NCBI RefSeq assembly: GCF_016758255.1
Contig: NZ_QYAD01000004.1
Location: 1-64,000, forward strand
Source: Leucobacter chromiireducens subsp. chromiireducens
Lineage (GTDB): Bacteria > Actinomycetota > Actinomycetes > Actinomycetales > Microbacteriaceae
Length of the DNA stretch: 64,000 nt
Reading direction: 5' to 3'
Shown: positions 17,312-33,427 of the stretch, one piece after another
Layout of the letters: every line of letters starts with the position of its first letter
How positions within the stretch are numbered: position 1 is the first letter of the stretch
Notes under the pieces: generated by a model
What the model was told of the DNA's origin: nothing
What the model saw: only the letters and a program-made list of their open reading frames with translations
Database searches by the model: none
Program-made: the position numbers and the translations under genes

Positions 17312-17321
17312 TGCTCAGCCG

Positions 17322-17342
17322 TTACAGAAAGTACAGATGCAT
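17322..17342 (-). CDS. Six-codon leader peptide MHLYFL
   Basis: ATG CAT CTG TAC TTT CTG TAA on the minus strand encodes MHLYFL. It sits just upstream of an intrinsic terminator and 138 bases before the ABC-F start. As I recall, the streptococcal msr(D) leader is MYLIFM, also six residues with the pattern M-aromatic/His-L-x-F-hydrophobic. The ribosome-binding site is weak (only AGAGTAG nearby). Interpretation as a drug-sensing leader is inferred from position and similarity. Confidence 0.6.
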   Translation of the reverse strand: MHLYFL

Positions 17343-17495
17343 GCCACTACTCTAGCGCATGAGTATCTGGAGTTGTGCTTGCCCGGGCTATGGGTGTATG
17401 TGCCTAAGAGTGCAGGGACGGACTCAAGTCGTCGGGACCGCTGAACGACCGGGTCCATGTCTGGTGTTGCAGTACTCGGGTCACGTCGACGGCAG
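17343..17495 (-). promoter_or_regulatory. Probable promoter region of the ABC-F operon
   Basis: This non-coding stretch between the IS481-type remnant and the leader ORF should hold the promoter for the ABC-F operon. A possible -10 (GATACT, about 17359-17364 on the minus strand) is seen but no convincing -35. It is also the flank of the insertion sequence, so transcription from the IS side is conceivable. Confidence 0.35.
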
Positions 17496-18484
17496 CTAAG
17501 TGTGATGCCCAGGGACGTCGTTGAGTCTGTCGAAGGGTGCGCCACCAATTGCAGAGTGGTGTCGATGGTGGTTGTAGAAATGGAGCCAGCCGGGCAGCGC
17601 CAGGCGTCGTTCGGCTTCTGAACCGTAAAACTTGGCATAGGCCCAGCCGTCCCCGAGCGTGCGGTGGAATCGCTCGATCTTCCCGTTCGTTTGCGGACGG
17701 TAGGGGCGTGTCCGCTTGTGTCGGATGCCGACCCGAGCGCAGAAGTCCCTCCATACGTGGGATCTATATGCCGACCGTTGTCGGATAGGACTCGCTCGAC
17801 GGTCACGCCTCGTTCGGCGAACCAGGCCACGGCGCGTTCGAGAACTCCCACCGCTGTGCTCACCTGCTCATCCGACCAGATTTCTGCGTATGCGACGCGG
17901 GAGTGGTCGTCGATGACTGTGTGAACGAACGCCGTCCCGGTGCGCGGCTTGTGATCTTTTCCTCGTGGTAATCCCGGAGTCGCGAGCTTGTTCCGTGCGC
18001 CTTGCTGCCGACCTACGTAACGATGTCCACCGCCGTCGGGGATGTTGCCGAACTTCGTGACATCGACATGAATCAACAATCCCGGATAAGGATGCTCATA
18101 TCGCCGCAATGGCTCGCCAGTGACACGATCGATATGCGAGAGGCGGTTCACGCGGCAACGGACGAGGACCGCGTGAACAGTCGACGTCGAGAGACCAAGT
18201 CGCGCAGCGATCGGGGCTGGCCCCAGTCGAAGCCGCCAGCGCAGGTTGATGATCTTCTTCTTGACATGCTCGGGCGTCCTGCCTGGGATCCGGTGCGGCT
18301 TGCTGGAGCGATCCTGCATCCCAAACTCACCCTCTTCCCGGTAGCGACCGGCCCATTTCCGGGCAGTGATCGGGGAGATCATGAACATTTTTGCGGCGAT
18401 CGTGGCCGGATAGCCGTCTTCGACAATCAGCCGGGCTAACCGGAGACGGGCACGAGGAGTGAGAAGAGCGTTCGGATGGGTCAT
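17496..18484 (-). pseudogene. IS481-family transposase, single frameshift
   Basis: The reading frame begins with an IS481-type N-terminus: a helix-turn-helix domain, then the DDE core with IHVDVTKFG, TVIDDHSRVAYAE and ERVLSDNG. At about 17773-17776 the frame breaks. The third frame then continues without a gap through the expected AYRSHVWRDFC, RPYRPQTNGKIERFH (the catalytic Glu) and WLHFYNHHRHHSAIGG to a stop at 17496. One missing base explains it, so the enzyme is probably inactive unless programmed frameshifting occurs. TGTGATGCCC directly after the stop looks like one IS end; no matching end is visible beyond the start codon, which overlaps the exporter stop. Confidence 0.85.
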
Positions 18485-19659
18485 CAATTGGCCTCCGCCG
18501 CGGTCTTCGTAAGCGCGCGCCCTGCGAGAAGCATGATGACGAGAGCGATCGCTGTCAGCACAGAAGCGACCCAAACCGGCGCGAGCAGCCCCAGCCCGGT
18601 CGCGAGCCCGAACGCACCAAGCGCGGGCCCCGCGGCAGCTCCGATATTCAATGCTGCGGTTGCGTACGAACCGCCCATCGTTGGCGCACCCGATGCTGCA
18701 TACAGCACACGCGTGATCAGAGTGCTGCCGACGCCGAACGACAGGAAGCCCTGAATGAGGACGAGGACGATAAGCGCAACGGGATGGGATGCGACCACTG
18801 CCAACACGATCCAGCCTGTCAGCAATAGCGGTCCGCCGGCTGCGAGCACGAGGCCAGGTCGTTGATCTGATAGTCGTCCTGCGATCGTGACGCCAAGGAA
18901 CGATCCGATGCCGAACATCACCAGCGCGACGGACACCCACGCTTCGGCCAAGCCCGCGGTCTCGGTCACGATGGGTGCCAGGAACGTGAATGCCGCAAAG
19001 GTCCCTCCGTTGATCAGCGCTCCGAGTGCCATGGCCAGGATGAGCCGTGGCGTCGCCAACTGGCTGAGCTCGACACGGAGCCTTGGTGAGGTCGCGCTAG
19101 TCGCGCTCCGACCAACATTGTTCGTGACGCCACGAATGACTCCAACTGCCGCGGGAATACAGAGGATGGCGATCGCCCAGAACGTCGTTCGCCAGCCCAG
19201 CGCTGTGCCGAGCAGTGCCCCGGCGGGGACGCCCACGACGGTTGCGATCGTCGTGCCGGAGAGCAGGATCGACAGTGCACGCCCCTTCTGGTTCGCTGGC
19301 ACGAGGGTTGTGGCCGTGCTCAGTGCTACGGCGAGGAATCCCGCGTTTGCGAGAGCGCTGAGCACCCGGGTGATGAGCAGGAGAGAGAACACTGGTGTCA
19401 TCGCTCCGATGACGTGGCTTCCCGCGAACACGAGAAGGCAGACGATCAATGTGAGCCGCGGTGGCCAACGGCGAGCGAATGCCGCCATCACTGGCGCGCC
19501 GACGACCATACCGACCGCGAATGCGGAGGTCAGCAGGCCCGCAGTGCCGACCGAGACGTCAAGTTCGGTCGCGATCGCGGGGAGCAATCCCGCGAGCATG
19601 AATTCTGAAGTGCCCATGACGAAGACCGCCAGGGCAAGCATGTAGAGAGCAAAAGGCAT
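18484..19659 (-). CDS. Cmx/CmrA-like chloramphenicol exporter (MFS)
   Basis: A 391-residue, 12-helix MFS protein. The N-terminal block (MGTSEFMLAGLLPAIATELDVS, then AGLLTSAFAVGMVVGAPVMA) and the motif ALANAGFLAVAL closely resemble the actinobacterial chloramphenicol exporters Cmx, Cml and CmrA. The ATG at 19659 has GGAG 6 bases upstream. Its stop overlaps the start codon of the IS481-type transposase, an association reminiscent of the corynebacterial Tn5564 (cmx with an IS481-type transposase). Substrate specificity is inferred. Confidence 0.8.
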   Translation of the reverse strand: MPFALYMLALAVFVMGTSEFMLAGLLPAIATELDVSVGTAGLLTSAFAVGMVVGAPVMAAFARRWPPRLTLIVCLLVFAGSHVIGAMTPVFSLLLITRVLSALANAGFLAVALSTATTLVPANQKGRALSILLSGTTIATVVGVPAGALLGTALGWRTTFWAIAILCIPAAVGVIRGVTNNVGRSATSATSPRLRVELSQLATPRLILAMALGALINGGTFAAFTFLAPIVTETAGLAEAWVSVALVMFGIGSFLGVTIAGRLSDQRPGLVLAAGGPLLLTGWIVLAVVASHPVALIVLVLIQGFLSFGVGSTLITRVLYAASGAPTMGGSYATAALNIGAAAGPALGAFGLATGLGLLAPVWVASVLTAIALVIMLLAGRALTKTAAEAN

Positions 19660-19936: not shown

Positions 19937-21091
19937 CTAGGTCCCTCTGGGGCCAATGAAACGGTAGGGAGGCGGGGGTTCGACGTTCCAGTTCATAGCG
20001 GTACGGCTAACACGGAGGGCAACAATAGCCTGCTCGGGGAGAACGCCGTTGCCGAGAGCGGCAAGCTGCTGGCTCGCGGTGAGCCCAAAACGGGCATGAG
20101 TAACCCACCCAGCTTGTAATCCCATGAGCCATTCAACGAACTCTGGTGCAGGTCGGGGGCCAGCCGTATCGCTCAGAATCGCTGGTGCCGGTGCCCGACG
20201 GCCGGTGCGTTGCTCCCACAGGGTCACTGCCTCGGCGTACCGTCCCCATCGTTGAAGAGCTGCCCTATCAGGTTCCACAGGCTCTCGAGCTCGTCGGCTC
20301 GCGGGTATCCGTCCGGTCCGTGGAGGGCGAGGTCGATGATCTGATGGCTGAGCGCTATGGTCCCGCGTCTCGCCTTGACCTGCTGCAAACTCTCTCCGCC
20401 ACGGGACGCGTCTGACGCGAGCGGCGTTCGAAAAAGTGCGGTGGGCGAGGATGAAGACGCGATATCGGGGGTGGGGTGCACCGATGGCGGAAGCGGGTAG
20501 ACCGATCCATTGCGCGTCATACCTGAGGTCGGCCAGATCTCCGAGAACTGCTCCTGCCGCCCGAAGAGGTCGGCGTTCGGTTTCTCCCAAATGCCAAAGG
20601 TCTGGTTCCACATCGCAAGGGGGTGCTGTATCGAGATTTGCATGCCTGGAGTTTCGTTGCTCATTGTCGTTTCCTTCGAGATTGGCACGGATCGCGCGTG
20701 CGGAGAGTAGCCCGCGGACGTTTTCGATCACTACCCACTGGGGTTGCAGCGTTTCAATCGCATCTGCCATGTGCGTCCAGAGGCCAGAGCGGGTGCCTGG
20801 TACGAGGCCGGCCATCTTCCCGACGGTAGAAACATCTTGGCAAGGGAACCCGCCACAAAGGATGTCCACCGGCGGGACGGTGTTCCAGTCGATGGTGGTG
20901 ATGTCGCCGAGATTCGGAGCATCCGGCCAGTGGTGGGAGAATACGCGGGCGATGGGTTCGTTGATCTCGGAGAACCAGATCGTCCTCGCGTGGAAGACGT
21001 CCTCGACGGCGAGATCGAGCCCGCCGTACCCAGAGAAGAGCGACCCGACGCGCATCGGCGCGTGCGGATCGTTGAGTGGTTGGTCTGCCAC
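19937..21091 (-). CDS. Orphan C5 cytosine DNA methyltransferase
   Basis: A cytosine-5 methyltransferase with motif I (GSLFSGYGGLDLA), motif IV catalytic loop (GGFPCQDVS; Cys about 84), motif VI (ENVRGLL), motif VIII (GAPHPRYRVFILA) and C-terminal motif X (LAALGNGVLPEQA). No restriction endonuclease is adjacent, so it probably protects the element from host restriction. GTG at 21091 is the better start because AGGAGG stands 7 bases upstream; the ATG at 21097 is only 1 base from it. The region between motifs VIII and X (about 213-300) is Arg/Pro-rich, and another frame of the same strand there also looks methyltransferase-like (see 20224-20688). Confidence 0.85.
   Translation of the reverse strand: MADQPLNDPHAPMRVGSLFSGYGGLDLAVEDVFHARTIWFSEINEPIARVFSHHWPDAPNLGDITTIDWNTVPPVDILCGGFPCQDVSTVGKMAGLVPGTRSGLWTHMADAIETLQPQWVVIENVRGLLSARAIRANLEGNDNEQRNSRHANLDTAPPCDVEPDLWHLGETERRPLRAAGAVLGDLADLRYDAQWIGLPASAIGAPHPRYRVFILAHRTFSNAARVRRVPWRREFAAGQGETRDHSAQPSDHRPRPPRTGRIPASRRAREPVEPDRAALQRWGRYAEAVTLWEQRTGRRAPAPAILSDTAGPRPAPEFVEWLMGLQAGWVTHARFGLTASQQLAALGNGVLPEQAIVALRVSRTAMNWNVEPPPPYRFIGPRGT
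20224..20688 (-). other. Overlapping second frame inside the methyltransferase gene
   Basis: On the same strand but in another frame, 154 codons are open. They encode stretches typical of phage and element C5-methyltransferase variable regions: W-P-T-S-G-M-T-R-N-G, then Y-P-L-P, then R-T-P-L-A-S-D-A-S-R-G-G and a helical end (RRGTIALSHQIIDLAL). The first of these lies opposite motif VIII of the main frame, so both frames look biologically meaningful. Possible starts are ATGs at 20688 or 20664. It may be a true overlapping gene or the relic of two frameshifts. Confidence 0.4.
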
Positions 21092-21303
21092 GAGCATGCC
21101 TCCTAGTAGTGAGATCCTCAGAGCTCAACTGCTGCTTAGAGATGGTCACTCACCAGGTGCACGAACCACCCCGTCTGCCGATGCTCAGCAGATCCGACCC
21201 AGGTCAAGCTGGCCGCCGCCGGCACCCAGTGCTTTCGATTTCTCGCGGTTCGCTCGAACGCGCTGTCACGCCTCTTGCAAGCGAGGTCCGCCGCTGTTCG
21301 CGA

Positions 21304-21370: not shown

Positions 21371-24300
21371 GTGATGACGGTTTCGATGCGGGTGATGTCC
21401 GCCGGCGACGGTTACAAGTACCTCCTGCGCACCGTTGCTGCGGGTGACGGTGACCGGATGCTCTCGACACCTTTGACCCGTTACTACTCAGAAAAGGGCA
21501 GTCCTCCTGGTCGGTGGCTTGGCTCCGCGGTTACCGCCCTTGGAGGTGGTGCGATCGTCGTGGGTGATCAGGTCACTGAGGCTCAGCTTCAACTCCTGAT
21601 CGGTAGGGGTGTTGACCCTGTGACAGGTGATCCGCTCGGGAGTGCGTATCGGAACTATCCGACGGTGACCGAGCGCATCCAACAACGCACCACCGCACTT
21701 GATCCCGAACTCGCGCTGACGGAGCGCGCGGAGGCGGTCGCCGCAATCGAGAGGGAAGAGACCATGAAGGGGTCGCGGAAGGCCGTTGCGGGGTTCGACT
21801 TCACGTTCTCAATTCCGAAGTCCGCGTCGGTGCTGTGGGCGGTGTCGGATGCGGGCATGCAATCGCTGATTGCGGACGCGCACCACGCAGCGGTTGCGGA
21901 GATGGTTGCGTTCATCGAACGCGAAGTTGCAGCAACCCGCGTCGGCGCGGCAGGGCGCAACGGGGCGGTTGCGCAAGCAGATGTGACGGGGGTGATCGCA
22001 ACCGCGTTCGACCATTACGATTCCCGCGCGGGCGACCCGCATCTGCACACGCATGTAGTGATCTCAAACAAGGTGCAGACCGCGCATGACGGAAAGTGGC
22101 GATCCCTCGACGGCCGCCCCCTGCACGCCGCAACGGTCGCGTTATCGGAATTGCATGAGGCTGTGTTTGCTGACCACCTCACTCGCGCCTTTGGTGTCGA
22201 GTGGGAGTCACGAGACAAGGGACACGATCGGAACCCGGCGTGGGCAATTAGTACGGTGCCGGAGGAGCTTGTGGCTGAGTTCTCCACTCGTGCGCGCCAT
22301 ATCGACTTAGAAACTGATCGCCTGATCGAGCAGTACGTCGCTACTCATGGGCGTCGGCCGACGCTGGCGGTAATCGTGCGGTTACGCGCACAGGCCACGC
22401 TCGCCACCCGACCTGAGAAGCAGGTTCGTTCGCTCGCAGATCTCACTTCTGTGTGGCGTGCACGCGCGACACACCTCCTTAGTAGAGACGCCACCACTTG
22501 GGCGCGCGCGGTTGCTGCGAATAATGCGCCGCAGTTACTACGTGCGGATGATATGCCGCTCGATGTCGTCGCGGCCCTCGGGCACAGCGTGGTCGAAGCG
22601 GTTGGAGAGAAACGATCGACATGGCGCAGATGGAATCTCACCGCCGAAGCCGCACGTCAAACCATGCAATTCAGGTTCGTCACGACCAGAGACCGCGAAG
22701 CGATCGTCGGAATGGTAGTGGACGCCGCCGAACAGTCATCCCTCCGGTTAACTCCGCCCGAGCTGGCATCGAGCCCTGCTGTGTATCGTCGGCAAGACGG
22801 CACGAGCACGTTCCGCCCGAAGTCCTCGACCGTGTACTCCTCAGAAGAGCTCCTCGCTGCGGAAGACCGACTCCTCAAACGCGCCAAGACCACCACCGCA
22901 CCAACGCTGCACGTCGAAGTCGTGGAGAAAGTCACCTCCCGGCCCGACAGTGAAGGGCGAATACTTGGCGAGGATCAGGCCACCGCGCTTGCGGCGGTCG
23001 CCGTGTCAGGCCGGGTGGTGGACGTACTGGTTGGCCCCGCAGGTGCCGGGAAGACGACGGCCATGCGTGCGCTCCGCACGGCCTGGGAGGGTGAGCATGG
23101 ACTCGACAGCGTGGTTGGGCTCGCGCCGTCGGCGGTCGCGGCGCAGGTCCTCGCCGATGACCTCGGTATCCAAACCGAGAACACCGCGAAATGGTGGGAC
23201 ATCCACCAGCGAACCAGCGCACCGTTTCGCAAAGATCAGCTGGTCATCATCGATGAAGCATCCCTCGCCGGAACCTTCTCCCTCGACCGCATCACCTCTC
23301 TTGCTCAACAGTCTGGGGCGAAGGTGCTGCTGGTGGGCGACTGGGCACAGCTCCAATCCGTCACCGCCGGTGGCGCATTCGCCCTCCTCGTTCACGACCG
23401 CGACGACGCCCCCGAGCTGGTCGACGTGCACCGCTTCGTCAACGCCTGGGAGAAGATCGCATCCCTCGACCTCCGCCACGGCCGTACCGAAGCGATCGAT
23501 GCCTACTCAGACCGCGGACGCATCCTCGGTGGCGATACTGAGACGATGATCGATGCCGCCTACACCGCCTGGCGTACCGACACCCTCGCCGGGGTCGCGT
23601 CTGTGCTGATCGCCGATTCTAATGAGTCAGTCCACGCCTTGAACCAGCGTGCCCGCGCCGACCTGATCCTCGATGGCACCGTGAACGCCCTCCGCGAAGT
23701 CGAACTCCCCAACGACTCCCGAGCAGCCGTTGGGGATTTGATCATCACCCGTCGCAATGACAGACGACTCCGCGCCGGGCGCGGATGGGTACGCAACGGA
23801 GACCGGTGGGCTGTCACCGATGTTCGTGATGACGGATCGCTCACCGTCCGCCGCGCCGGCTCCCGCGGGGTCGTAATGTTGCCTGCCGGATATGTTGCCG
23901 AACATGTTGAGCTCGGGTACGCGGTGACCGCGCACCGAGCCCAAGGCATCACCACAGACACAGCCCACCTCCTCGCTGACCCCAGCACCACGAGGGAGAA
24001 CCTGTATGTCGCGATGACTCGCGGCCGGGACATGAATCGGATGTACGTTGCCACCGACCGGCCCGACGACGCCCACGATGGCCCGCACCCCACCGACAAC
24101 CCTGATGCAACAGCACGAAGCGTGCTCTACGGAGTTCTCCAGCACGTCGGCGCGGAACTGTCAGCGCACGAGATGATCATCGCCGAACAAGAACAATGGG
24201 GATCGGTGGCGCAACTCGCAGCAGAGTACGAAACCATCGCCCAAGCCGCCCAACACGACCGTTGGGCAACCCTCATCCGCGACTCCGGTCTCACTCCAGA

Positions 24301-24922
24301 GGAAGCAGAAGACACTATCCAATCCGACACATTCGGTGCGCTCACCGCAGAGCTCCGCCGTGCGGAAGCGAACCATCACAACGTAGCCGCACTCATGCCG
24401 CGCCTCGTCGCGGCCCGAGGCTTCAGCGACGCCGACGATATTGCCTCTGTGCTCCATCACCGTCTCTCGCGCGCTGTCGCCCGGCCCGCTGGACCTGGCC
24501 GCACCCGCAAACCAGCACGCTTGATAGCCGGACTCATCCCCGAAGCGACCGGTTCGATGAGCAACGACATGCGGAAGGCCCTTACCGAACGACGAGACCT
24601 GATCCGGTACCGGGCCGATGCAATCCTCGAGCAAGCAATCGCAGAAGGGCAGAGCTGGGTCATCGCGCTCGGAGAAACACCCGTTGGCGCTAGTTCCGCG
24701 GCAACCTGGCGGGAGCACGCCCGAACGGTGGCTTCGTATCGCGACCGCTATGGCATCACTACGAAGACCCCGCTCGGCGCAGCAGCGGACAGTGACGCTC
24801 AGAAGATCGATGCCGCACGAGCCAAAGCAGCGGTATTACGACTTCAGGAACTCACAATCACGGATTCCAGTGATGGTCGGTCACGAGCGGTACAACGCGA
24901 GAGTTCCAGTCGGGCATTGTGA
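21371..24922 (+). CDS. MobF-family relaxase-helicase (TraA/TrwC-like)
   Basis: This protein should nick oriT, stay linked to the transferred strand and unwind it. The N-terminal TrwC relaxase domain (about 1-330) has the candidate catalytic pair TRYYSEKG and the metal-binding triad DPHLHTHVVI. The RecD-like helicase half has Walker A GPAGAGKTT (about 555), Walker B LVIIDEASLAG and the late motifs VTAHRAQGIT and NLYVAMTRGRD. A helical C-terminal region of about 280 residues may bind the coupling protein. Length, 1183 residues, fits actinobacterial MobF proteins. GTG at 21371 or ATG at 21374 may start it, with GAAGG upstream. Confidence 0.93.
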   Translation: MMTVSMRVMSAGDGYKYLLRTVAAGDGDRMLSTPLTRYYSEKGSPPGRWLGSAVTALGGGAIVVGDQVTEAQLQLLIGRGVDPVTGDPLGSAYRNYPTVTERIQQRTTALDPELALTERAEAVAAIEREETMKGSRKAVAGFDFTFSIPKSASVLWAVSDAGMQSLIADAHHAAVAEMVAFIEREVAATRVGAAGRNGAVAQADVTGVIATAFDHYDSRAGDPHLHTHVVISNKVQTAHDGKWRSLDGRPLHAATVALSELHEAVFADHLTRAFGVEWESRDKGHDRNPAWAISTVPEELVAEFSTRARHIDLETDRLIEQYVATHGRRPTLAVIVRLRAQATLATRPEKQVRSLADLTSVWRARATHLLSRDATTWARAVAANNAPQLLRADDMPLDVVAALGHSVVEAVGEKRSTWRRWNLTAEAARQTMQFRFVTTRDREAIVGMVVDAAEQSSLRLTPPELASSPAVYRRQDGTSTFRPKSSTVYSSEELLAAEDRLLKRAKTTTAPTLHVEVVEKVTSRPDSEGRILGEDQATALAAVAVSGRVVDVLVGPAGAGKTTAMRALRTAWEGEHGLDSVVGLAPSAVAAQVLADDLGIQTENTAKWWDIHQRTSAPFRKDQLVIIDEASLAGTFSLDRITSLAQQSGAKVLLVGDWAQLQSVTAGGAFALLVHDRDDAPELVDVHRFVNAWEKIASLDLRHGRTEAIDAYSDRGRILGGDTETMIDAAYTAWRTDTLAGVASVLIADSNESVHALNQRARADLILDGTVNALREVELPNDSRAAVGDLIITRRNDRRLRAGRGWVRNGDRWAVTDVRDDGSLTVRRAGSRGVVMLPAGYVAEHVELGYAVTAHRAQGITTDTAHLLADPSTTRENLYVAMTRGRDMNRMYVATDRPDDAHDGPHPTDNPDATARSVLYGVLQHVGAELSAHEMIIAEQEQWGSVAQLAAEYETIAQAAQHDRWATLIRDSGLTPEEAEDTIQSDTFGALTAELRRAEANHHNVAALMPRLVAARGFSDADDIASVLHHRLSRAVARPAGPGRTRKPARLIAGLIPEATGSMSNDMRKALTERRDLIRYRADAILEQAIAEGQSWVIALGETPVGASSAATWREHARTVASYRDRYGITTKTPLGAAADSDAQKIDAARAKAAVLRLQELTITDSSDGRSRAVQRESSSRAL

Positions 24923-25566: not shown

Positions 25567-29088
<3,522 letters not shown>

Positions 29089-29536: not shown

Positions 29537-29988
29537 ATTGCGAAGCTGCCCCCTAAACACGGAGGACCAGATAGTTCGGCACTGAAGGCTGGACTGGATA
29601 GCATCAGTTCAATGGCCACCACTAGGTTTGTGAAGCGGCTGGCCCTGCTGGGAAGGAATAAGAGATCAAATTAGGCGAAACAGGCATCAATCTACGAGTG
29701 CGACTTCACTTACTCACATCACTGTGAGACGTGCCACTGCCGCGAGAGGCATCAGCGGAAGAAAATCGACTACTTGAACAAGGGCACTGCCCTTGTTGGC
29801 GGTGACCGGCGCCTTGCGAGCACTGGTGTTTTACCAAGCTCTTCTGGAATCTTTAATGCGCCCCTTTTCAGAGGTAAGCAAGGTGAACTCAACTAGCTGA
29901 GGCACTCAATAGGATGCGGTCAGTAAGCAGATACAAAACTAGATATCGTGAGATACGACGTTTCACGGCACAGCATGGAGAAACTATC
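29537..29988 (+). other. Intergenic region before the SIR2 gene
   Basis: No convincing gene is seen. A hairpin with 9-base arms (AACAAGGGC and GCCCTTGTT, 29777-29797) stands inside a 70-odd-codon open plus-strand stretch that has clustered Cys and His residues but no start codon, probably a gene remnant. The SIR2-HerA promoter should lie in the last 100 bases. Confidence 0.4.
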
Positions 29989-31365
29989 ATGAGCGAGGCA
30001 TTTGAGGTCGATGGCGACCGGGGACTATTTGTTGTCGGTGGGAAGGTCAAGTCGTTGATTTCCGAGCACGATCGGTACATTATGACTGATTACTTCGCTT
30101 CTCTTCTACAAGTACATAACCTAGTGATCTTGATCGGTTCCGGAGCTTCGTTCCATCTGGACTCACCTCAGACTCGCAACCTCAAGAACGAGGCAGTGGT
30201 CGCACTCATTGAAGCTGCAGGGCAAACCGTCGAGGGCCCTGATCGGGAGCTACTTTCTTTCTTGAACCCAAATGATAACGGGGATTTGGAGAAGCTTCTG
30301 AACGGGCTTCAACTTGCTGCTTCACTCGCTGAGCAAGCCGCACTTGCGAAGGTGACTTTTGGTGAGGGCTCTTCAGCCAAGAGCTTTACACGGGATCAGA
30401 TTGACAGGCTCAAAGGGAAGATCAACGTCGCTTTTGCGAAAGCCTGCGAGTTGCCGAGGAAAGACTCATCGCTTTCCGATCCGCTTGCTGCCCACCGACA
30501 ATTCTTCTCTCGAATTGTCCGAAGCAGGCGTTCCAATTTGCCGAGGACAAAGGTCTTCACAACAAACTATGACCTGGTAATTGAACGAGCGTTGGATCAG
30601 CTTGGATACCCATATATCGATGGTTTCAGCGGCACCGTGGACCGCAGACTCAATCTCGCCTACTACGGACTGGATTTCCATAGGGTCGAGACTGCCTCGC
30701 AACAAGTTGTCGCCCGTGCAGACAGTGCACTGTACTTGCACAAAATTCACGGCAGCCTAAATTGGAAAGCAATCGTTGATGGTTCGGCTGGAGTGACAAC
30801 GCTCGAAGTGATCCAAGTAGCCGAAGGAAGTGCGTCGATTGATGAGCCGGTGTTGATTTACCCGACAACAGCGAAGGAGGGTGATTCTCTCTCTTACCCT
30901 TACTCAGATTTGATGAGGCTTTTGAGTGATGCTGTTCAGCAGAATGACACGGCTGTCATCACCATTGGGTATGGATACAGCGATCCACATATAAATCGTA
31001 TTCTTCTGCGAAGCTTGGCGATCAACCCTGCCCTCAATATTCTTGCGATTGATCCATTTGCGGTACTGGGGAGTGGCCGTGAACTCGGCATAGCAATGTT
31101 GGATGACGAGTTGGTAGGACAAACCCTGGCTCACCGCGACCACGAAGTGCTCGATACCCCAATCGGAGCACTAGCCGCAGCTGATGACTCCCGAATCGCA
31201 GTATTGACTGGGTCAGCGGGAAAATTCGAGAAGATGGTGGATCTGCTGCCCGAGTCTGGGCTTGATATGAACATAAATCCTCCTGCCGCAGTAATGACTC
31301 TTATCGAATCGCTCGAACGGTTCACGGCGGCCGAAACATCGCGTGGAGAGAAACATAATGAGTGA
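29989..31365 (+). CDS. SIR2-domain NADase of a SIR2-HerA defence pair
   Basis: A 458-residue protein with the SIR2 fold signature set: NLVILIGSGASFH (about 44-56), VFTTNYDLVIERAL, LHKIHGSLNW with the expected His, and ITIGYGYSDPHINRIL near the C-terminal part of the domain. In anti-phage systems such proteins degrade NAD+ when activated. The ATG at 29989 is preceded by GGAGA at 8 bases. A longer frame to 29914 lacks a site. The stop overlaps the herA start by 8 bases, so the two are coupled. Confidence 0.88.
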   Translation: MSEAFEVDGDRGLFVVGGKVKSLISEHDRYIMTDYFASLLQVHNLVILIGSGASFHLDSPQTRNLKNEAVVALIEAAGQTVEGPDRELLSFLNPNDNGDLEKLLNGLQLAASLAEQAALAKVTFGEGSSAKSFTRDQIDRLKGKINVAFAKACELPRKDSSLSDPLAAHRQFFSRIVRSRRSNLPRTKVFTTNYDLVIERALDQLGYPYIDGFSGTVDRRLNLAYYGLDFHRVETASQQVVARADSALYLHKIHGSLNWKAIVDGSAGVTTLEVIQVAEGSASIDEPVLIYPTTAKEGDSLSYPYSDLMRLLSDAVQQNDTAVITIGYGYSDPHINRILLRSLAINPALNILAIDPFAVLGSGRELGIAMLDDELVGQTLAHRDHEVLDTPIGALAAADDSRIAVLTGSAGKFEKMVDLLPESGLDMNINPPAAVMTLIESLERFTAAETSRGEKHNE

Positions 31366-33427
31366 TGTAGGCGTAATTGGACGAGTTTCGTCGGTGCAGA
31401 GCACCGTGATCCGAGTCTCGCTCGAAATGGGCTCGAAGGGGTTCACCAAGGTAGGTCCCGACGGACTCCAAACCGTGGGTGTCGTCAACTCTTACATCAC
31501 GGCACCGGCAGGGGCACATCGAGTTGTTGCGATAGTTACTGGTGTCTCGATTGTAAGAGGTCACGACCGACAGGCCGGACGCGACTTACTAAGCGAAGAT
31601 GACCAGGCTGAATATGAGCTTGAGGCCGCCGTCGTTGGTCGGTTTGAAGGCGAGAAGTTTAAGTCAGGTTTGACTGCGTACCCGTCGCTACACGCTCCCG
31701 TGAGAACTGCGACACCCCCTGAAGTCAAGAACATCTTTTTACCCAAAGACGTTTCCTCGCTGCGTCTTGGATCATCTGTGGTCGCAGCGGAGCAAGACGT
31801 CTACCTTGACGCCAATCTGCTCCTTGGACATCACTGCGCTGTTGTGGGATCGACCGGCTCCGGCAAGTCTTGTACTGTTACAGCGATAATCGACAGCCTT
31901 CTCGATCACGACATTCCAAGTGGGCACATTGTCATATTCGACATCAATGGCGAATATGCTCAGTCCTTCGCAAAGGACACTCCTCGTGGAAAGAAGTGCC
32001 GGCCCCTGATTCTCGGCCCCGAACCAGGAGCAGAATCTGGACTCTTCTTGCCGCATTGGTTCATGAACAACGAGGAGCATCTATCCCTATTCCGCGCAAG
32101 CGAAGGTGTGCAAGCTCCCGTGGTTCAGCGAGCTGTAGCAGATGCGAGGATCGCAGGCGCATACTCGCAAGCAGAAGCTGACAGCCTTGAAAACGTCCGC
32201 AGTACGCTAGCGATTATCCAGTCCTACTTTTCAAACGCTATGGACGGCGAATCGCCAGCCTTTCGCCAATTGGAGTCCCTCAAAGGGCTGACGAAATGGC
32301 AGGCCTCCCAAGGGACGCAAATCCAATCTCGCTGGCAGAACATGGAATCTCTCGTTTCACAGGTGATGACTTCATCCGCTCTCCGAGACGGAGAACGATA
32401 CACGCCGCTCACAGCTTTGCATCGTCATCGTTTGAGCCAGTTCATTTCGTCCATGAATGTGGAAATTGTGGGCGCACTCGGTGCACTCGGAATTGGCAGT
32501 GCCTCCACCGGTGCGGACTTTGATGCTCCCGTTTACTACGAACTCCAACAGCTGTGCGACTTTTTCCTCCCAAATCGCATTCAGAGGGAACAGGCGAACG
32601 ACAATCGAATTGGTAGCTATGTAGCAACGTTGCAGATGCGCTTAAGCCGGCTTCTGGCTGACGGGCGATATGACTTTATGACCCGTATCGAGCGACATGA
32701 CGATCCGCTCGGATCATATCTTCGTTTACTCATGGGTGAAGATCCGACAAAAGGTAATTCAGGTTCAGACTGGCCAGCCTCAGCAACATACGACACTCAA
32801 AGCCAAAACCATGGAACGGGTCCATCTGTGGTTATCTTTGACCTCAGCTTGGTCGCGAGTGACGTGCTTGAAAGTGTCACCTCTCTACTTGGTCGAATTC
32901 TCTTCGATTTTTCAGTTCGCAGCAACCCAAGGGCAGAACACCCGCTACTTTTGGTTCTCGAAGAGGCTCATCGGTTCGTTCCAGCTCGTCTGGAGGCTAG
33001 TGGTACCGGGATGAGGTCGACCGCAGTTTTTGAACGGATAGCGAAGGAAGGACGAAAATTTGGTTTATCCTTGCTGCTTGCGAGCCAGCGTCCGAGTGAA
33101 CTCAGTGAGACGGTTGTGGCGCAGTGCGGCACTGTGATCGCGCATCGGCTCACCCACGAGGCTGATCAAGCGTTGCTGAGGCACGCGACAGCACTGAGCT
33201 CCAGGGCGTTACTAGATCAACTTCCCGGGCTTGCTCAGCAACATGCCCTCGTCACCGGTGTAAGCACGGGCGTACCTGTGGCCGTACGGGTAAGGGACGT
33301 ATCAGACCCGCCGAAGAGTAACGACCCTGACTTCATCGCGAGCTGGACTGACCCTGAACGCCGAAAGGGGCTACCTGCCCATATCGACAGGGTCGTAAGC
33401 GCCTGGCAAGGTCCAAAAACACCCTAG
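31358..33427 (+). CDS. HerA-type hexameric ATPase of the SIR2-HerA pair
   Basis: The 689-residue protein has an N-terminal HAS-barrel-like region (about 1-130). A HerA/FtsK-like ATPase core follows, with Walker A GSTGSGKS (164-171), Walker B LLLVLEEAHRF and the downstream LLLASQRPSEL and AHRLTHEADQALLRH motifs typical of HerA. The family forms hexamers; with SIR2 partners it makes a large complex that senses infection and controls NAD+ depletion. GGAGAG lies 7 bases before the ATG at 31358. A GTG at 31343 is a weaker alternative. Confidence 0.88.
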   Translation: MSDVGVIGRVSSVQSTVIRVSLEMGSKGFTKVGPDGLQTVGVVNSYITAPAGAHRVVAIVTGVSIVRGHDRQAGRDLLSEDDQAEYELEAAVVGRFEGEKFKSGLTAYPSLHAPVRTATPPEVKNIFLPKDVSSLRLGSSVVAAEQDVYLDANLLLGHHCAVVGSTGSGKSCTVTAIIDSLLDHDIPSGHIVIFDINGEYAQSFAKDTPRGKKCRPLILGPEPGAESGLFLPHWFMNNEEHLSLFRASEGVQAPVVQRAVADARIAGAYSQAEADSLENVRSTLAIIQSYFSNAMDGESPAFRQLESLKGLTKWQASQGTQIQSRWQNMESLVSQVMTSSALRDGERYTPLTALHRHRLSQFISSMNVEIVGALGALGIGSASTGADFDAPVYYELQQLCDFFLPNRIQREQANDNRIGSYVATLQMRLSRLLADGRYDFMTRIERHDDPLGSYLRLLMGEDPTKGNSGSDWPASATYDTQSQNHGTGPSVVIFDLSLVASDVLESVTSLLGRILFDFSVRSNPRAEHPLLLVLEEAHRFVPARLEASGTGMRSTAVFERIAKEGRKFGLSLLLASQRPSELSETVVAQCGTVIAHRLTHEADQALLRHATALSSRALLDQLPGLAQQHALVTGVSTGVPVAVRVRDVSDPPKSNDPDFIASWTDPERRKGLPAHIDRVVSAWQGPKTP

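Follow-up and report, generated by a model that had tools for sequence, protein, structure and literature searches.

A C5-cytosine methyltransferase gene with a second gene nested in its +1 frame: two overlapping frames that probably encode two subunits of one enzyme

In the C5-cytosine methyltransferase M.EcoHK31I the gene of the small polypeptide sits in an alternative frame of the gene of the large one. M.EcoHK31I and M.AquI are known two-polypeptide C5-methyltransferases, a kind of enzyme that the available portion of one account describes as exceptions (PMC3404938). According to the same portion, the large polypeptide of M.EcoHK31I (YGGCCR) carries motifs I-VIII and X, the small one carries motif IX, and the predicted TRD is assigned to the large polypeptide; in M.AquI (CYCGRG) one subunit comprises motifs I-VIII and part of the variable region, and the other comprises the rest of that region and motifs IX-X (PMC3404938). 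An out-of-frame HNH insertion has been described in the ShiLan-type phage methylase (PMC11855218, of which only a part was accessible).

We analysed a stretch of 64,000 nucleotides from Leucobacter chromiireducens subsp. chromiireducens (the window), in which a methyltransferase ORF, here called alpha, overlaps a second ORF of the same strand, here called beta. As in the two-polypeptide enzymes, two conserved and selected frames jointly hold the motifs, all of them in alpha and a module with the pattern LLPTPxASDGxxGG (PTP module) in beta, and in relatives the motifs are split between the frames. A small subunit with motif IX is not found in the window, where motif IX is in alpha, but it is found in the related layouts B and C. 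As far as the consulted part of the description of M.EcoHK31I goes, the class C layout of phages splits motifs VIII, IX and X likewise, whereas the window keeps IX and X in the large frame and its small protein consists only of a WPxSGM domain and a PTP module. On the same partial evidence, the phage layout B (Jamun, ArV1) resembles the split of M.AquI, and that of the window is another one. Since motifs IX and X in alpha, with an N-domain and one recognition-like module in beta, match neither enzyme, we regard the window as a new variant beside them, without homology having been established. The ShiLan-type gene, so far as its description was accessible, is similar in having an out-of-frame gene inside a phage DNA methylase, and the relative in phage Ailee (L007) also has an HNH gene inside, but the second frame of the ShiLan type is an inserted homing endonuclease with no methyltransferase part. 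Several phage "DNA methylase" pairs (ArV1 067a/067b, Phanphagia 65/66, Catdawg 5/6, Heather 35/36) belong to the same family and have the same overlap with both genes annotated; annotation is case by case, and other records annotate just one of the two genes. In the open-licence literature searched, we found no description of a family-wide overlap.

Two overlapping frames in the window

The features of the two frames, all on the minus strand, are as follows.

19937..21097, minus strand: alpha, C5-cytosine methyltransferase ORF of 386 aa, with motifs I-VIII, a IX-like motif and motif X in a single frame
20837..20845, minus strand: catalytic PCQ of alpha, which we take to be motif IV
20444..20482, minus strand: motif VIII of alpha, GAPHPRYRVFILA
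20288..20407, minus strand: alpha residues 231-270, predicted to be disordered, at the expected site of the target-recognition domain
20099..20140, minus strand: FVEWLMGLQAGWVT of alpha, presumably a motif IX-like stretch, which lies in the frame of beta in many relatives
20027..20056, minus strand: LGNGVLPEQA of alpha, assumed here to be motif X
20672..20676, minus strand: Shine-Dalgarno AAGGA, 7 bases 5' of the ATG of beta
20224..20664, minus strand: beta, a nested gene of 146 aa in the +1 frame of alpha, with probable start ATG 20664 and stop at 20224
20488..20610, minus strand: N-terminal domain of beta, W-N...W-E...WPTSGMTRNG...YPLP; the synonymous codons of alpha are strongly biased over these bases
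20332..20433, minus strand: TRD-like PTP module of beta, FRTPLASDASRGGESL...SHQIID, with strong constraint on beta and hardly any on the alpha frame

Alpha matches PF00145, the Pfam model of the catalytic core, at E 6e-34 (118 bits, cut-off 22) and phrog_363 at E 3e-68. Its predicted structure has a pLDDT of 71.8 with a well-modelled core and an M.HhaI-like fold, M.HhaI being the top Foldseek match in the PDB (E 1e-12). Residues 129-175 and 231-270 fall below pLDDT 50; the former underlie the start of beta and the latter overlap most of its PTP module. We take alpha to be without an ordered target-recognition region, given that what follows motif VIII is under hardly any constraint and is predicted to be disordered; what this means for DNA recognition is inferred. 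Since motifs I-X are all in the frame of alpha in the window, alpha alone could in principle be active, which counts against a two-subunit enzyme.

The open frame around beta (20224-20688, minus strand) has 154 codons counted from a GTG, contains WPTSGMTRNG, YPLP and TPLASDASRGG, and matches phrog_1008, "DNA methyltransferase", at E 1e-11. The GC3 peak in the overlap tracks the frame of beta (0.748) and not that of alpha (0.503), GC by codon position being 0.58/0.50/0.75 in the beta frame and 0.76/0.58/0.50 in the alpha frame. Modelled alone, beta gives a poor structure (pLDDT 56.7, pTM 0.30, the N-terminal strands best), which also counts against the two-subunit reading; nothing convincing was found in the PDB with this poor model, the best match having E 2.6, and searches with beta or phage betas against Pfam, NCBIfam, PADLOC and PDB sequences gave no informative match. 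The first-pass annotation of this DNA had placed motif VIII and later methyltransferase motifs in the main frame and the three peptides named above in the second, and both sets are present as described, in 19937-21097 and 20224-20688. It had also recognised the second-frame peptides as parts of phage-type variable regions; for WPTSGM this has to be abandoned, because it belongs to a separate beta domain lying over the stretch that leads into motif VIII.

We consider it probable that one C5-cytosine methyltransferase is made from the overlapping frames, with alpha and beta as its two subunits, although there are no translation, complex or methylation data. Alpha, with catalytic motifs I-VIII and, in the window, IX and X, would be translated from its own start and beta from the internal Shine-Dalgarno and ATG 20664 in the +1 frame; that the two are translated simultaneously is inferred. 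The small beta-strand domain of beta (WPxSGM) would dock on alpha, its PTP module may serve as the recognition domain that alpha lacks, and the two would assemble into an active enzyme as M.AquI and M.EcoHK31I do. Both the formation of a complex and the role of beta as target-recognition subunit, bringing recognition to alpha, are inferences. That beta is translated and selected we regard as close to certain, its translation being itself inferred in the absence of expression data.

The overlap, its layouts and the start of beta across the family

Beta peptide patterns, used to scan genome contigs, yielded 174 relatives, of which 80 were kept; 30 of 398 genomes of the host's family contain a relative, and phage relatives carry the same overlap as the window. 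The layout table of close relatives lists 118 loci together with the window (119 rows), which come down to 90 once identical beta ORFs are removed. Alpha is open from the N-domain to motifs IX/X with beta inside in 97 of these rows and motifs IX/X are in the beta ORF in 6, the others being unclassed (8), "A-interrupted" (3) or of "other" arrangement (5). Rows that are broken or oddly arranged (8/119) were counted against the two-subunit reading. Sequencing error or a pseudogene, considered as a source of the double frame, is contradicted by the conservation, though some relatives are indeed broken or oddly arranged. Another alpha/beta pair of the same layout is present in the window's own genome (L119, G000:C6:97500-101000), its beta being 59% identical over the matched stretch.

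Motif VIII stood in one fixed frame relative to beta in 203 of 205 loci found through beta, the remaining two having no motif VIII match, and in 95/95 of a further set found in the same way; one locus (L122) had no beta profile match. Identical or near-identical loci and the window's own copy were kept in the 119-row table and in the 205-locus count. Because these sets had been fetched by beta, methyltransferases were then fetched by N-terminal motifs only, taking the best 80 of at least 591 and the best 80 of at least 590 relatives, so that the nearest relatives were sampled. Motif VIII was found in 77 loci of the first set, the actinobacterial type; 75 of the 77 matched the beta profile in the same frame, none had a stop in the beta frame across the motif VIII block, and the two without a match were counted against our main reading. 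The second set, class C (the proteobacterial and cyanophage kind), had motif VIII in 79 loci and beta in 79/79. The GC content of the surveyed loci ranges from 0.37 to 0.73, and a Leptospira plasmid copy with GC 0.44 has the same two frames. Three reservations apply to these sets: the class C search patterns (GGFPCQD, RSGLW...) may fall inside an earlier beta start, though not inside the tested motif VIII block; six class C test contigs (L389, L429, L432, L445, L450, L451) had served as seeds of the class C beta profile as well; and among the contigs of the actinobacterial type at least six (L301, L304, L305, L319, L349, L357) had also been fetched through beta. E. coli genomes searched with part of a class C phage gene gave just four short matches, covering 11% of the query.

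The layouts were counted with regular expressions for the motifs in loci with both ORFs complete, using the sets fetched by N-terminal motifs. Motifs IX and X are both in alpha in the window, as they are in 27 of 76 loci of the actinobacterial type; in 38 both are in beta, and 11 have another arrangement or none found. Class C has IX in beta and X in alpha in 50 of 75 loci, X in alpha with IX not found in 18, and other arrangements in 7. For the motif IX region the test was confined to those class C loci, 35 of 73, in which alpha has a C-terminal pattern, typically EPxVGRVAxGVPxR. In 35/35 of these the +1 frame reads NPxWVEWLMGF, and the WVEWLMGFP of this frame presumably corresponds to motif IX, which it resembles; the alpha codons GGT, GTG, GCT, GGG and CCC are each fixed at one column (35/35) and relax directly after, at motif X. 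PTP modules occur in either frame between motifs VIII and IX: at least one lies in beta in 66 of 77 loci of the actinobacterial type and in alpha in 13, the class C figures being 52 and 1 of 79, and several occur in phage alphas such as those of prophi104-2 and Ailee. On a tree of 244 loci (145 with one of the two layouts in which IX and X share a frame), at least 14 layout changes are needed for three layouts and at least 12 for these two; the tree was built with FastTree from the N-domain and motif VIII block, a short alignment, and is rough. In one class C viral locus (L449) alpha ends five residues past the motif VIII block and beta continues to motif IX; motif X was not found in either frame there.

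These layouts bear on whether beta might be a separate protein, such as a regulator, an anti-restriction protein or another factor, and no subunit of the methyltransferase at all. Such a protein would fit with a start signal of its own and no recognisable fold, and with the presence of both IX and X in the window's alpha; but in many relatives beta holds methyltransferase motif IX, or IX and X, and PTP modules are found in either frame between motifs VIII and IX, and we therefore think it unlikely.

The start assigned to beta bears on another alternative, in which programmed frameshifting, instead of internal initiation, fuses the frames into one polypeptide. GTG 20688 is no more than the mechanical start of the ORF, a conserved AAGGAG-type site and ATG pointing to 20664 as the probable start of beta; GAAGGAGACGACn-ATG occurs at the equivalent place in many relatives. 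Among 77 non-redundant loci having motifs I-X in one alpha ORF, 53 have an ATG with AAGGAG, and 68 have some Shine-Dalgarno-like match before the chosen start, a count that is biased upward since start selection favoured such a match; eight have none and one lacks the start. Three loci, L001, L084 and L098, have a beta-frame stop at the Shine-Dalgarno or immediately 5' of it, so that no read-through into beta from upstream is possible in them. The two frames do overlap on one strand, and methyltransferases are named, in the accessible part of one source, among genes known to contain a frameshift (PMC10885494). Against this stand the conserved Shine-Dalgarno and start codon inside alpha, and the fact that in the layout of the window beta stops short of motif IX, so that a shifted product would lack IX and X; frameshifting is thus a decidedly improbable explanation of the overlap.

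Selection and codon choice in the two frames

In 27 close relatives, variability at the third codon position of alpha is 0.13 inside the overlap against 0.33 upstream and 0.59 downstream, and at its first position, the third of beta, 0.25 inside, 0.11 upstream and 0.25 downstream. In these relatives dNN/dSN is 0.55 for alpha (bootstrap 0.39-0.74) and dNN/dNS is 0.21 for beta (0.15-0.29), and in a second set of 39 loci the same ratios are 0.53 and 0.38. Purifying selection thus acts on both frames, and its load is divided between them along the overlap: the quarter with motif VIII is closely constrained in alpha (0.16) and less so in beta (0.53), this weaker constraint having been counted against our main reading, and in the next quarter, with the PTP module, alpha is unconstrained (1.33) and beta is under very strong constraint (0.04). 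The corresponding values in the second set are 0.29 and 0.37 for motif VIII and 1.26 and 0.13 for the PTP module.

The codon choice of alpha is bent to keep beta. Alpha synonymous codons in 122 clustered loci, every one of them fetched through beta, diverge from background by 0.12 bits in 68 upstream columns and by 0.90 in 38 overlap columns (p 4e-9). One alpha glycine is GGA in 113/114 (background 169/1340), which keeps a Glu of beta; one alanine is GCC in 117/117, which keeps the Pro of the beta WP; another glycine is GGG in 79/79; and one valine is GTT or GTA in 115/120, which keeps a Phe or Tyr of beta. The bias in the sets fetched by N-terminal motifs matters more than that in this beta-fetched set, and there the upstream and overlap values are 0.11 and 0.65 bits for the actinobacterial type (72 loci) and 0.13 and 0.69 for class C (73 loci). 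Along the gene of the actinobacterial type, +1-frame stops reach a frequency of about 0.08 per codon upstream and drop to 0.000 where beta starts, and the codon bias rises at the same place. In class C they disappear earlier, before motif IV, and since an MSSAEGSPART-like peptide also recurs there, beta probably starts earlier in this class. The codon-bias, randomisation, along-gene and tree analyses excluded near-identical loci and any locus whose N-domain is in another ORF, and most of them excluded long inserts as well.

The +1 frame might look conserved merely because the alpha motif GDLADLGYDAQW, coded by GC-rich codons, reads TWPTSG.TR.G in that frame. When alpha was randomised synonymously, the +1 frames still averaged 15.6 bits (actinobacterial type) and 20.4 bits (class C) against the beta profiles and were stop-free about one third of the time, and distant methyltransferases (L482-L484) show WPTSGM at a weak 2e-4 to 5e-4. 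The real genes, however, score 58.5 and 61.8 bits on average, and in 66/72 and 67/73 loci they score above every one of the 200 randomisations, the six failures in each set being counted against our main reading. Furthermore, the bias persists in loci of the actinobacterial type with GC below 0.50 (0.22 against 0.73 bits, 25 loci) and of class C with GC below 0.52 (0.18 against 0.89 bits, 29 loci), and the codons chosen in low-GC loci are ones seldom used in the background of those loci, such as GGG for one Gly in 24/25 against 34/295. Among controls, ordinary methyltransferases of the host's family, beta was found in 0/16 and the frame was stop-free in 4/16, against 19/19 and 18/19 in family members, L482-L484 matching only weakly; 30 of 46 control and 5 of 24 family loci without the motif VIII pattern had been left out, and L531 was in neither group. 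The low-GC subsets, the randomisation and the controls together contradict a shadow of GC content as the explanation of the family, and we give it hardly any credence. L482-L484 themselves, of the LADIGYGVAW type, have WPTSGM or WPSSGM in the +1 frame, at scores so low that it could be either a remnant or a shadow. That the constraint serves an RNA or DNA element and not a protein we consider most unlikely: synonymous-site constraint alone cannot separate the two, but here it follows the codon phase of beta, allows conservative changes in beta such as Phe/Tyr, and accompanies a stop-free beta frame.

The proposal of the first-pass annotation that both frames are real is therefore borne out, since both are open in nearly all relatives examined, both are selected, and the codon bias and synonymous randomisation tests reject chance. 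It had named interruption of the second frame by stops in most relatives as grounds for giving the proposal up; this was looked for in homologues and did not occur, and the synonymous-site constraint that it suggested looking for is present, with purifying selection on both frames. Its two alternatives each hold in part, a conserved overlapping gene because both frames are open in nearly all relatives and selected, and a frame exchange because motifs IX/X and the PTP modules lie in the frame of alpha or of beta depending on the relative.

On balance we favour, with some reserve, the view that dual coding is ancient and defines a very large family of C5-methyltransferases from phages and mobile elements, with members in Actinomycetota, Pseudomonadota, cyanophages and Spirochaetota, in which a conserved and as yet unnamed beta domain (WPxSGM) always lies in the +1 frame over the stretch into motif VIII and recognition modules, IX and X move repeatedly between the frames. 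The overlap is present in nearly every locus sampled from this family, with both frames selected over about 50 codons or more, and if this view is true few known pairs of genes that overlap on the same strand would be as widespread. With enzyme modules that move between two frames, overprinting and the splitting of genes could be tested directly in bacteria. Some annotated phage methylases are without their partner gene, and its absence from annotation could explain failures of expression from the annotated ORF alone, although this is an inference.

Genomic surroundings

One further feature lies beside the pair.

21371..24922, plus strand: divergent neighbour, a MobF/TrwC conjugative relaxase

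Of 110 loci, a redundant set that includes identical or near-identical loci and the window's own copy, 82 have a relative of this relaxase inside the stretch that was fetched. The Pfam scan, which covered seven proteins of the window, showed no endonuclease, and the nearest scanned ORFs are the relaxase, an MFS transporter and an IS481-type transposase. From an apparently orphan methyltransferase beside a relaxase we infer that the likely role of the enzyme is protection, in that it would mask the conjugative element from host restriction.

Three other observations concern the surroundings. The IS481-type transposase (17315-18940, minus strand), with an integrase core, is an unusually long ORF that adjoins the MFS transporter (18484-19659). 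On the plus strand, a 1173-aa NACHT-domain protein (25567-29088) lies between the relaxase and a SIR2 gene and gives a weak match to a candidate defence model. Beyond it, neighbouring genes for a SIR2-domain protein and a HerA-like ATPase (29914-33427, plus strand) match the PADLOC SIR2 and HerA models at E 2e-59 and 1e-180, and judging from these matches they form a probable SIR2-HerA anti-phage system.
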